Source: Egibacteraceae bacterium (GTDB taxonomy: Bacteria > Actinomycetota > Nitriliruptoria > Euzebyales > Egibacteraceae). Taken from it: a stretch of DNA of 64,000 bases. Numbering within the stretch: position 1 is the first letter of the stretch; the number at the start of each line of letters is the position of its first letter. The notes under the pieces were generated by a model. The model was not told the origin of the DNA and ran no database searches. It saw only the letters and a program-made list of their open reading frames with translations. The stretch covers positions 25,504 to 89,503 of the forward strand of contig JAUJMQ010000006.1 in NCBI GenBank assembly GCA_030446775.1, in the 5' to 3' direction. The position numbers were made by a program, and so were the translations under genes. Positions 3,732-38,305 of the stretch are shown here, piece after piece.

Positions 3732-4544
3732 ATGACGACCTCCGCCGCGTTCTTCGACCTGGACCGCACCCTGATGTCGGGCAGCAGCGCCTACCACTTC
3801 GGCAAGGCGTCCTACCGCGAGGGGTTGCTGCCGCTGCCGCGGTTGGTCGCCGACGGGCTGTCCACGCTGGTGTTCCGGTTCCTCGGCGCCTCCGACGCGC
3901 GCTCGGAGGCGACGCGCGACCGGATCCTGGAGAGCGTCGCCGGCGTGGGCGCCGAGACCTTCCGCCGCATGTCGCCCACCGTCGTCGACGAACTGCTGGG
4001 CCGCATCCGCCCCGAGGCCCAGGCGCTGCTCGACATGCACGTCGAGGCGGGCCGCGACGTCTACATCATCTCCGCCAGCCCCGTGGAGATCGTCAGCCTG
4101 CTCGCCGAGGCTCTGGAGATCTCCGGGGGGCTGGGAACCGAGAGCGAGATCGTCGACGGCGTCTACACCGGACGGCTCGCGGCGCCGTTCTGCTACGGCG
4201 AGGGCAAGGCCGAGGTGATCCGCAAGCTCGTCGCCGACCGCGGCTACGACCTGGCGCAGTGCTACGCCTACTCCGACTCGGCCAGCGACCTGCCGATGAT
4301 GCTCATCGTCGGCCATCCGGTCGCGGTCAACCCCGACCGGGCGATGACCGCGGTGGCGCACCGGCGCGGCTGGCCGGTCGTGGAGTTCAACCGCCAGGCC
4401 AAGCAGGTCGCCAAGCTGTCGGTGGCCGGGGCGCTGACCGCCGGCGGCGCCGCGGGCGGCTGGGTGCTCGGGGCACGTCACGAGCGCCGCGACGCCGTCC
4501 GCCACGCCGAGGCGCACCGCGTGATGCGCCTCGTGCGCCGCTGA
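3732..4544 (+). CDS. HAD-IB family hydrolase (SerB-like phosphatase)
   Basis: This is a haloacid dehalogenase superfamily subclass IB protein of 270 residues. Motif I is FFDLDRTL near the N-terminus, with the nucleophile and acid Asp residues in DLD. Motif II lies in the YIISASPVEI segment, and the motif IV region is YAYSDSASDLPMM. Relatives are phosphoserine-phosphatase-like enzymes and lysophospholipid-acting proteins of actinobacteria. The Ala/Gly-rich C-terminus (VAGALTAGGAAGGWVLG) looks like a membrane-anchoring helix. The ATG at 3732 places motif I at residue 7, as usual, so the upstream in-frame ATG at 3711 is less likely. The physiological substrate is unknown. Confidence 0.85.
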   Translation: MTTSAAFFDLDRTLMSGSSAYHFGKASYREGLLPLPRLVADGLSTLVFRFLGASDARSEATRDRILESVAGVGAETFRRMSPTVVDELLGRIRPEAQALLDMHVEAGRDVYIISASPVEIVSLLAEALEISGGLGTESEIVDGVYTGRLAAPFCYGEGKAEVIRKLVADRGYDLAQCYAYSDSASDLPMMLIVGHPVAVNPDRAMTAVAHRRGWPVVEFNRQAKQVAKLSVAGALTAGGAAGGWVLGARHERRDAVRHAEAHRVMRLVRR

Positions 4545-4626: not shown

Positions 4627-5429
4627 ATGCCGACGCAGGACGTCGCCGCTGTCGAGTACGCCAACCTCTTGACCGCCGCCGACGCCGAGCCGCGGCTCGC
4701 CGAGGCGCTGTTCGACGCCCCGCTCACGACGCTGGTGGAGCTCCACGGCCTGGTGTGCGCCGGGCTGGTCGACCCGCAGGTGGTCGGCCGCCCGCGGCGG
4801 ACGGCGCAGGCGATCGCCGACGGGGCGCAGGGTCGGATCGTCTACCACGCCCCGGACCCCGCCGCCGTTCCGGGGCTCCTCGAGGGGGCTGGCGGCGTGG
4901 TTGTCGTCGGCGGGACGGCGCGGCAGCGCCGCCCTGCCAGCCGTCCTCGTCTCCGCGATCGTCCACGAGCGGCTGCTGGAGTGGCAGCCGTTCGAGGCCG
5001 CGAACGGCAGGGTCGCGCGCGCGGCCGCGCGTCTGGTGCTGCGGGCGCGGGGCGTCGACCCGCTCGGTGCGGCGGTGATCGAGCGGGGCTTCGCCGACGA
5101 TCCGCAGCGCTACTACGCCGAGGTGGCCGCGACGATCCGGCGCCGGGGTGACCTCGGCCGGTGGCTCGAGCGCCACACCGAGGCGGCCGTCACGGCCCTG
5201 CGGCGCGCCGCCGACGTCGTGACGCCGGCTGTGGTGCCGCCGGTCCCGGCGCGGGCACGTCACGCGCTCACCGTCTGGCGCGCCCGGCGAGTCGGTCACC
5301 GTCACCGAGTACGCCGCGTCGCACGGGGTCAGCCGGGAGACGGCATGGGCGGAGCTGCGGGCGCTGGAGCGGCACGGTTCGCTCGCACGGCAGCCGGGAA
5401 CGAGGGGGCTGGGATACCGCCGCCGCTGA
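4627..5429 (+). CDS. Fic-like family protein, frameshifted, degenerate motif
   Basis: Three reading frames join into one protein that resembles actinobacterial Fic/DOC-domain proteins. The N-terminal helical part ends at about 4884, where one extra G in a run of five shifts the frame. The core then reads IVHERLLEWQPFEAANGRVA. This corresponds to the Fic loop HPFxxGNGR, but with Gln in place of the catalytic His. A second shift near 5265 leads into a C-terminal winged-helix-like segment (EYAASHGVSRETAWAELRAL) and the stop at 5429. Coding potential continues upstream of 4627 to about 4558 without a start, so the true N-terminus is uncertain. AMP-transferase activity is doubtful without the His. 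Confidence 0.6.
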
Positions 5430-34929: not shown

Positions 34930-35634
34930 TCAGAACAGCTCTGGATCGCCGAGGCCGGCGGCGGCACGGATCGGCGCCCACGTCTGGCGATGCAGGCGGC
35001 AGGGTCCGTGCTCGGCCAGCGACAGCCGGTGGTCGGGCGAGGGGTAGCCCTTGTTCGACGAGAACCGGTAGGCGGGGAAGTCCGGGCAGACCGAGGACAT
35101 GAGCGTGTCGCGGTGGACCTTGGCCACGATGGAGGCGGCAGCGATCGATGCGGAGCGGGCGTCACCGCCGATGATCCGCTCGTTGCGCGTGCCGTAGCCG
35201 GCCAGAAAGTCCCAGTTGCCGTCGACCAGGCACACGTCGGGCCGCGACGGCAGGGCGTCCACCGCCCGGGCCGCCGCGAGGCGGATCGCCGCGGTCATTC
35301 CGACCTCGTCGATCTCGGCGTTGGAGGCCGAGCCGATGCCGACGCCGACCGCGAAACCCGAGATCCGCTCGGCCAGCTCCTCCCGGCGCCGCGGGTCCAG
35401 GACCTTGGAGTCGCGCAGCTTGTACATCCGGTGGTCACTGGGCAGCACGACGGCCGCGTACGTGACCGGCCCCGCCCAGGCGCCGCGACCGACCTCGTCG
35501 ACGCCGGCGACGAGGGCGCCCTCGTCCCACCAGCGTCGCTCCAGGCGCAGCCCCGGCACGTCGGGCAGCCGGCGGCGCCTGCCGTTGGTGTACTGCACGT
35601 TGCGGCGCTGGCTGGCGGGCAGCATGGCCGTCAC
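34930..35634 (-). CDS. rnhB: Ribonuclease HII
   Basis: RNase HII cuts the RNA strand of RNA-DNA hybrids and excises single misincorporated ribonucleotides. The 234-residue protein has the first catalytic pair in VAGVDEVGRGAWAGPV. Further acidic residues lie in KLRDSKVLD and CLVDGNWDFLAG, and the block ARSASIAAASIVAKVHRD is typical. The C-terminal SNKGYPSPDHRLSLAEHGPC is characteristic of actinobacterial type 2 enzymes. GTG 35634 and ATG 35625 are both possible starts, and no clear Shine-Dalgarno is seen. It is encoded on the same strand as the selenoprotein and malic enzyme genes. Confidence 0.93.
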   Translation of the reverse strand: MTAMLPASQRRNVQYTNGRRRRLPDVPGLRLERRWWDEGALVAGVDEVGRGAWAGPVTYAAVVLPSDHRMYKLRDSKVLDPRRREELAERISGFAVGVGIGSASNAEIDEVGMTAAIRLAAARAVDALPSRPDVCLVDGNWDFLAGYGTRNERIIGGDARSASIAAASIVAKVHRDTLMSSVCPDFPAYRFSSNKGYPSPDHRLSLAEHGPCRLHRQTWAPIRAAAGLGDPELF

Positions 35635-35738: not shown

Positions 35739-35975
35739 TCAGCCGACCCGGCGGCTGACCGCGGCCAGCACCTCTCCCGGCTCGGCATGCCGGCCAGTGG
35801 CCCGCTTGCTGTAGACGACGTCGCCGTCGACGCCGACCTCGAACACACCGCCGCTGGAGGGCACCAGGGTCAGCTCGGCGATGTCGTAGCCGTGCTCGGC
35901 GAGAAGCTCGGCCGCCAGACCGGCGGCACGCTCGGCGTAGCCTCAGACGTTGCAGTACTCGATCGTGACGCGCAC
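35739..35975 (-). CDS. SelW/Rdx-family selenoprotein (Sec at residue 11)
   Basis: A 78-residue thioredoxin-fold protein of the SelT/SelW/SelH (Rdx) family. From the GTG at 35975 it reads VRVTIEYCNV, then an in-frame TGA (35943-35945), then GYAERAAGLAAELLAEHG. Reading TGA as selenocysteine gives the family redox motif CxxU with Cys8 and Sec11. The rest fits Rdx proteins (LTLVPSSGGVFEVGVDGDVV, then YSKRATGRHAEPGEVLAAV), ending at a normal TGA at 35739-35741. GAGGGGG eight bases before the GTG is a good ribosome binding site. A bacterial SECIS-like hairpin follows the TGA at the right distance. The gene starts 33 bases after the malic enzyme stop. If the TGA were an error for TGC, this would be the common CxxC homologue. 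Confidence 0.87.
35911..35927 (-). promoter_or_regulatory. Bacterial SECIS element
   Basis: On the minus-strand mRNA, GCCGCC and GGCGGC form a six-base-pair perfect stem around the five-base loop GGUCU. The loop starts 21 nt after the UGA. In E. coli fdhF the SelB-binding hairpin has the same GGUCU apical sequence about 18 nt after its UGA. The hairpin lies inside the reading frame, as bacterial SECIS elements do. Confidence 0.82.
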
Positions 35976-36008
35976 GCGTGGCCCCCTCACCTGTTGTGTC
36001 CGGGTGGT

Positions 36009-37427
<1,419 letters not shown>

Positions 37428-37454
37428 GCGGGCCATCCTGCCAAACTGCGCGGC

Positions 37455-38305
37455 ATGGATCTGGGAATGGACGGCTGGGGTGTGCTCGTGACCGGGGCGT
37501 CCGGCGGGATCGGCTCGGCGACTGCGCGGGCCTTCGCCGCCGAGGGCGCGCGGGTGGCGGTGCACTACCACCGCTCGCGCGACGCCGCGGAGACGGTGGC
37601 CGCCGAGGTCGGCGGCGTGGCCCTGCAGGCCGACCGGCGCGAGGAGCGGGCCGCGGACCGGCTCGTGCCGGCGGCCGTTGCGGCACTCGGTCGTCTCGAC
37701 GTCTGTGTCGCGAACGCCGGCGTGTGGCCGCGCGAGGACGTGCCGGTCACCGGGATGGATCTGGACCGCTGGTCGGCGCGACGATCGACGCGAACCTCAC
37801 CGCCACGTTCCTGACCGCCCGTGCCTACCTGCGCCACGCCGCCGCGGCACGTGCCGGCTGCCTGGTCCTCGTCGGCTCGACGGCGGGCCGGTTCGGCGAG
37901 GCCGGCCACGCCGACTACGCCGCCGCCAAGTCGGCGATCACCGGCGGGCTGCTGCAGTCGCTGAAGAACGAGGTCGTGCGCACCGCCGCCGGCGCCCGCG
38001 TGAACGCGGTGGCGCCCGGTTGGACGGTGTCGCCGATGACCTCGCGCGACCTCGACGCGGCACTCGTCGAGCGGGTGACCCGCACGATGCCGTTGCGCAA
38101 GGTCGCCACCGCCGACGACGTGGCTCGCGCGATCGTGTGGCGGCCCACGCCCTTGGCCGCCGGACACGACACCGGCGCGCTCGTCACGGGGGCGGGCGGC
38201 ATGGAGGGGCGGGTGCTGTGGGGCCGCCCCGGCGGACGACGCCTCGCCCCGCCCGTCCCCCCCGATCCCCCGCCCCGAGCCCCGGCCCCGAACCCGCCCA
38301 GATAG
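37455..38305 (+). CDS. Short-chain dehydrogenase/reductase, frameshifted
   Basis: A classical SDR oxidoreductase of about 280 residues. The cofactor loop is VLVTGASGGIGSATARAFAA near the N-terminus, the NAG motif lies in VCVANAGVWPRED, and the active-site Tyr and Lys are in DYAAAKSAITGG. One shift near 37778, after DLDRWSA, joins the first frame to the second (TIDANLTATFLTARAYLRHA). The substrate is unknown; similar proteins are annotated as 3-oxoacyl-ACP-reductase-like. The C-terminus ends in a Pro-rich tail. The ATG at 37455 is used, with 37467 as an alternative. Confidence 0.78.

Follow-up and report, generated by a model that had tools for sequence, protein, structure and literature searches.

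A SelW-like gene with an in-frame TGA predicted to encode selenocysteine in an Egibacteraceae bacterium

Introduction

A small gene on the minus strand of a contig from an Egibacteraceae bacterium contains a TGA codon shortly after its GTG start, and the same frame runs on past this codon to a second TGA. The locus raises the question of whether the first TGA terminates the protein or is read as selenocysteine (Sec). An in-frame TGA is the codon at which gene finders stop; the machinery present in the genome and the hairpin that follows the codon make recoding credible. The gene is very probably a SelW (Rdx) gene in which the UGA is predicted to specify Sec with the help of a likely SECIS hairpin, yielding a 78-residue thioredoxin-like C-x-x-Sec protein. 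The term window refers to the whole 64,000-nucleotide stretch of DNA that was analysed, and all positions at the locus are positions of the window.

Bacterial SelW-like selenoproteins with a CxxU motif are an established family, published by 2006 at the latest (PMC1794560, PMC13188914). The 2006 survey places them among the families for which Sec-containing organisms have few Cys homologues or none (PMC1794560), a 2016 survey counts 35 SelW-like selenoproteins (PMC5029168), and a 2026 review lists SELENOW-like proteins (PF10262, CxxU) under those predicted with high confidence (PMC13188914). SelW genes overlooked by annotation are described for Epsilonproteobacteria (PMC4607533). The lineage of the present gene is probably Euzebyales (Nitriliruptoria), for which a limited literature search found no selenoprotein paper. 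No paper linked Euzebya to selenocysteine, and none on Nitriliruptor came up in a second, weaker search with loosely matched terms.

The selW-like gene and its reading frame

The frame opens with GTG (35975-35973), reads VRVTIEYCNV up to the in-frame TGA, continues with GYAERAAGLAAE and ends at a TGA stop (35741-35739). The residues between the in-frame TGA and the terminal stop are GYAERAAGLAAELLAEHGYDIAELTLVPSSGGVFEVGVDGDVVYSKRATGRHAEPGEVLAAVSRRVG. The purine-rich stretch upstream (Table 1) ends 6 bases 5' of the GTG and is a putative ribosome-binding sequence. The active-site motif is C8-N-V-U11 (CxxU), in which the TGA occupies the position of the second Cys of Cys-form CxxC proteins. A GTG frame with these ten residues, a TGA at the redox Cys/Sec site of Rdx proteins, a continuation to a normal stop and a distance of 33 bases from a malic enzyme gene had been proposed from the sequence alone (the sequence-only reading). 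The frame, the TGA and the stop were all confirmed, the site is Cys in 16 homologous copies, and the end of the upstream ORF at 36009 agrees with the distance.

Table 1. Features of the selW-like locus
Feature	Position	Strand	Remarks
selW-like CDS	35739..35975	-	78 residues if the first TGA encodes Sec; begins with GTG and ends with TGA
In-frame TGA, predicted Sec codon	35943..35945	-	residue 11, CxxU with Cys8
Ribosome-binding-like stretch AGGTGAGGGGG	35982..35992	-	putative
Predicted SECIS hairpin GCCGCC-GGUCU-GGCGGC	35911..35927	-	6 bp, 5-nt loop, conserved in relatives
Apical loop GGUCU	35917..35921	-	begins 21 nt past the UGA
Upstream malic enzyme ORF	36009..37571	-	name from the sequence-only reading; ends 33 bases before selW

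Family membership, fold and selection

The read-through frame matches Pfam Rdx (PF10262) with 75.6 bits (E 3.4e-21, cut-off 22.6) over profile positions 1-73 of 74, and TIGR02174 (CXXU_selWTH) with 55.5 bits (cut-off 34.2). Its score with the narrower model NF041051 (SelTWH_Campy) is 84.2 bits, slightly below the cut-off of 88. No other Rdx match was found in a genome-wide search of the host. The read-through protein, whose residues past the TGA the sequence-only reading had called family-like, belongs to Rdx by both PF10262 and TIGR02174, and the codons past the TGA are under purifying selection in comparison with the three copies from other genomes of the host family (dN 0.16-0.21, dS 0.44-0.60). 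In seven more distant pairs the values are dN 0.39-0.46 and dS 0.48-0.96, with dN close to dS in some pairs. The gene is supported as an Rdx/SelW selenoprotein gene with a recoded UGA, as that reading proposed.

An alignment of 34 of the 46 Sec copies described below, in which U was entered as C and both CxxC/CxxU columns are invariant, was used for fold prediction. The AlphaFold2 model, with Cys for Sec, has a pLDDT of 94.9 and a pTM of 0.84, and the protein is confidently predicted to have the thioredoxin-like SelW fold. The 21 PDB chains that match the model best all belong to SelW-like proteins of bacteria, with TM values of 0.82-0.93 by query length, and mouse SelW gives a TM of 0.68. The motif and the predicted fold suggest that Cys8 and Sec11 could form a selenenylsulfide and that the product would act as a small thiol/selenol redox protein.

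Selenocysteine machinery of the host and its relatives

The host genome is a metagenome-assembled genome (MAG) of 2.4 Mb in 78 contigs that is 60% complete. The sequence-only reading had named selA, selB, selD and tRNA-Sec as the genes to look for, and a lack of selB and tRNA-Sec as one result that would count against it; all four genes were found. A tRNA-Sec (69 bits; ARAGORN call SeC(tca)) lies on contig C5, which also carries adjoining selA (408.6 bits) and selB (245.7 bits) genes, and selD (352.8 bits) lies on contig C75; the three protein matches are each above the cut-off. By the established bacterial pathway, SelD would make selenophosphate, SelA would convert Ser-tRNA-Sec to Sec-tRNA-Sec, and SelB bound to the mRNA hairpin would deliver Sec-tRNA-Sec to the UGA ahead of the release factor.

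SelD is itself probably a second selenoprotein of the genome, because its gene contains an in-frame TGA (HGAG-TGA-ACK, L038:3909-3911; TGA at 14908 of contig C75) that is followed by a hairpin. This hairpin, TGGCGCA-GGTCC-TGCGCCA, has 7 bp and its loop GGTCC lies at +35.

Among the relatives, tRNA-Sec was detected in 40 of 46 genomes with a Sec-form gene compared with 3 of 15 with a Cys-form gene (Fisher p 3.4e-6, uncorrected for relatedness), at thresholds of at least 56 bits in Sec-form genomes of the class and E <= 1e-9 in the others. The positive Sec-form genomes comprise 13 of the 14 from the class (all but G043) and 27 of the 32 others. The six Sec-form genomes without a tRNA-Sec over the threshold include two (G104 and G130) that are 98-99% complete. 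Within the class, selB is above the cut-off in 13 of 14 Sec-form genomes (all but G044); selB or tRNA-Sec is present in all 14, and both are present in 12. One genome (G099) holds two Cys-form Rdx copies (L069 and L087) together with a tRNA-Sec.

Sec-form and Cys-form homologues

Relatives were compared through a search of genomes. An Rdx match was found in 4 of the 21 genomes of the host family, the host included, each with one TGA, and an ATG or GTG lies ten codons 5' of the TGA in all four. The class sample gave matches in 15 of 66 genomes (14 with one TGA, one with none), and the phylum sample (Actinomycetota) gave 57 matches in 56 of 396 genomes (40 with one TGA, 17 with none); the samples overlap in eight genomes with a TGA copy and one with a Cys copy. 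A match that begins at profile position 25, short of the active site (L088, G306), was dropped before the counts. The two samples together contain 62 Rdx copies that cover the active site, of which 46 are Sec-form and 16, in 15 genomes, are Cys-form; a comparison with homologues of both kinds had been named as a check in the sequence-only reading. The in-frame stop at the active site is TGA in 46 of 46 copies and TAA or TAG in none, and the IEYC codons 5' of it are conserved together with the TGA. The Sec/Cys label changes 4 times on the best tree, and only 1 change is forced by well-supported branches of this weakly resolved tree of 83 columns. A pattern search of the genome contigs for related loci gave 592 matches, none of which was confirmed by tblastn.

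The nearest database protein (P0002, named from a Euzebyales bacterium) is 83% identical in an alignment that spans 75% of the query; its name and one other suggest placement of the host in Actinomycetota, Nitriliruptoria, Euzebyales. This and other close database copies start past the TGA (P0002, 59 aa; P0003, 65 aa; P0017, 47 aa). Two other database models, P0005 (CVVWNY) and P0007 (CAVWNY), have W at the Sec/Cys site, possibly from a gene caller that read TGA as Trp. With one TGA in 40 of the 57 Rdx matches among 396 Actinomycetota genomes, many small selenoproteins of the phylum may be missed or listed in truncated form.

The predicted SECIS hairpin

A search for a SECIS element past the TGA, also suggested by the sequence-only reading, identified the hairpin listed in Table 1. 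The published bSECIS model, as given in a recent review, comprises a loop of 3-9 nt, a stem of 4-16 bp, a G in the first two loop positions, a distance of 16-37 nt from the UGA and an MFE of -7.5 or lower (PMC13188914). The hairpin agrees with each of these values, with a 5-nt loop, 6 bp, GG, 21 nt and -12.4 kcal/mol, the energy being that of the 19-nt stretch 35910-35928 (z -3.05). Stretches of 56 nt and 38 nt at the site fold no better than shuffled sequences (z 0.13 and -0.94, respectively), and 4.7% of synonymous recodings of the gene match its hairpin. Taken alone, the hairpin of this gene is only mildly unusual, and its strength is comparative. Rfam gave two matches at the site, both far under the gathering scores. 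When the host genome was searched with a model of the SelW hairpin, the gene scored 62.1 bits, being part of the model by construction, and the next matches scored 18.3 bits and lower.

Of the 46 Sec copies, 43 have a hairpin of at least 5 bp with an NGUNN loop past the TGA, compared with 1 of 16 Cys copies at the corresponding site. As a null, 300 synonymous recodings were made with codon weights taken from the same genes, which raises the expected number if anything. On average 5.2 recoded Sec copies, and never more than 12, had such a hairpin, against 43 observed; for the recoded Cys copies the mean was 0.54, against 1 observed. The Sec copies with fewer than 5 bp are L074 and L081 (4 bp) and L082 (3 bp). 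The Cys copy L069 of G099 retains a 6-bp NGUNN hairpin.

Where the loop encodes Gly, all 33 cases use GGT, and L051 has AGT; elsewhere GGT makes up 26 of 193 Gly codons in these genes, and in four genes of the window that neighbour selW it makes up 16 of 187. Two Cys copies, L055 and L061, keep Gly-Leu at the loop site and use GGC.

Two forms of the hairpin

Two forms of the hairpin were found among the Sec copies. The loop lies at +24 (numbered from the first base of the TGA) in 34 of 46 copies, with GGUCU in 33 and AGUUU in L051. In 11 of 46 copies (L034, L057, L065, L066, L071, L077, L080-L083 and L085) the GGUCU hairpin is replaced by one with a CGUGN loop at +20. The remaining copy, L086, has neither form and was omitted from both DNA alignments and from the loop tree. 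This tree holds 45 Sec copies and requires 2 changes for the CGUGN form (2-3 across bootstrap replicates), though a single change may suffice.

The alignment of the GGUCU form (34 rows) contains one informative inner pair (UA 15, UG 13, CG 6). Its covariation score was reached by 4 of 500 shuffles, and its doubly changed pairs were not above the shuffles (73 of 500), relatedness being ignored in both cases. In the alignment of the CGUGN form (11 rows), five pairs are doubly changed, a count reached by 5 of 500 shuffles, and there are 8 doubly changed cells, reached by 0 of 500, again with relatedness ignored.

A broader interpretation, offered tentatively and itself rather doubtful, is that Sec SelW is the commoner form across Actinomycetota and that its SECIS exists as two mutually exclusive hairpins in place, GGUCU at +24 (34/46) or CGUGN at +20 (11/46). 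These would share a GCCGY stretch paired in different registers and would have been swapped inside the coding sequence under an unchanged protein, with SelB adapting to each. The two-form hairpin may be new; the literature was checked for it only superficially. A coding-region hairpin in two registers would offer a natural series for SelB recognition of the SECIS and for change of the SECIS under an unchanged protein.

Alternative explanations

The explanation that deserves most weight after Sec decoding is that the Sec system is decaying in this lineage, with a truly broken selB, a UGA that acts as a stop and a selW that is a recent relic; this is unlikely, and decay of selB, if real, would leave the strain unable to insert Sec. 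It draws on two defects of the assembled selB locus (L037, positions 84500-93500 of contig C5), at about 4270-4360 and at 5331-5394. The P-loop reads GHVDRGQA, whereas it is GHVDHGKS in 30 of 30 relatives (36 genomes with selB above the cut-off gave 30 loci, all of which were read), and further changes extend over about 34 codons. Between 5331 and 5394 the frame shifts from +1 to +3, near residue 365 of about 620. The altered stretch, however, contains 12-16 differences from A/T to G/C and none in the reverse direction in comparison with each of six relatives, a one-way pattern that resembles an artefact more than drift. Downstream selB shows both directions about evenly, in an ungapped comparison that is probably out of register and is a weak control. 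The remainder of selB, together with selA, selD and tRNA-Sec, is still above the cut-offs, and selW retains both its hairpin and the mark of purifying selection. The selB changes are probably a sequencing or assembly artefact. A strong hairpin between selA and selB, immediately ahead of the latter (L037:4184-4242; -35.1 kcal/mol, z -4.86) could be a terminator, a regulatory element or a cause of poor sequence.

Ordinary termination at the TGA, with the ten-codon piece as the start of a pseudogene or with a shorter protein made from a start past the TGA, would account for the truncated database relatives, but pieces that start past the TGA are without the redox motif. Conservation of IEYC together with the TGA, the exclusive use of TGA at this site and the hairpin that follows also speak against it, and it is very improbable. 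A base error, the true codon being TGC or TGT, might be suspected in a MAG whose selB looks damaged and in a family that has Cys forms. An error in this contig would nevertheless not explain the TGA found at this codon in 45 further genomes; the gene also carries the hairpin, which is missing from 15 of the 16 Cys copies, and the probability left to an error is minute. Equally negligible is a changed genetic code in which TGA encodes Trp. The two database models with W at the site would fit it, but the terminal stop of the gene is itself TGA, the active-site column is otherwise Cys, and the genome carries tRNA-Sec along with the Sec genes. Decoding of the UGA as Sec is the preferred explanation.

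Relation to known systems

The gene resembles the bacterial SelW-like selenoproteins in family, size, CxxU motif and a hairpin directly past the UGA (PMC1794560, PMC13188914). It differs from them in that its close relatives are listed truncated and in the phylum-wide conservation of the hairpin in two alternative forms. The SelW genes of Campylobacterota have in common with it the Sec form, omission by annotation and a hairpin past the TGA, of 5/6 bp in Campylobacterota (PMC4607533), whereas the present protein stays below the cut-off of the SelTWH_Campy model.

The solved structures of bacterial SelW-like proteins, 3dex (Streptomyces avermitilis), 2fa8, 2obk, 2oka, 2ojl and 2p0g fall within the TM range given above for the best chains, and sequence matches to such structures have E values of 5.5e-13 to 1.4e-5. 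The protein of 2fa8 is a Cys form, with CTQC in the alignment, whereas the present gene is predicted to encode CxxU. The SECIS of Escherichia coli fdhF has an apical loop that contains GGUCU at a similar distance past the UGA. It belongs to a different gene and has a different stem.

Neighbouring genes

A tight association of selW with malic enzyme was rejected: among the three same-family relatives, the gene upstream of selW is a strong match to malic enzyme in just one, a weak match in another and no match in the third. The ORF downstream of selW (34930..35634, minus strand), which is putatively RNase HII (rnhB)-like, lies downstream of selW in all three of these relatives, with 78-83% identity.
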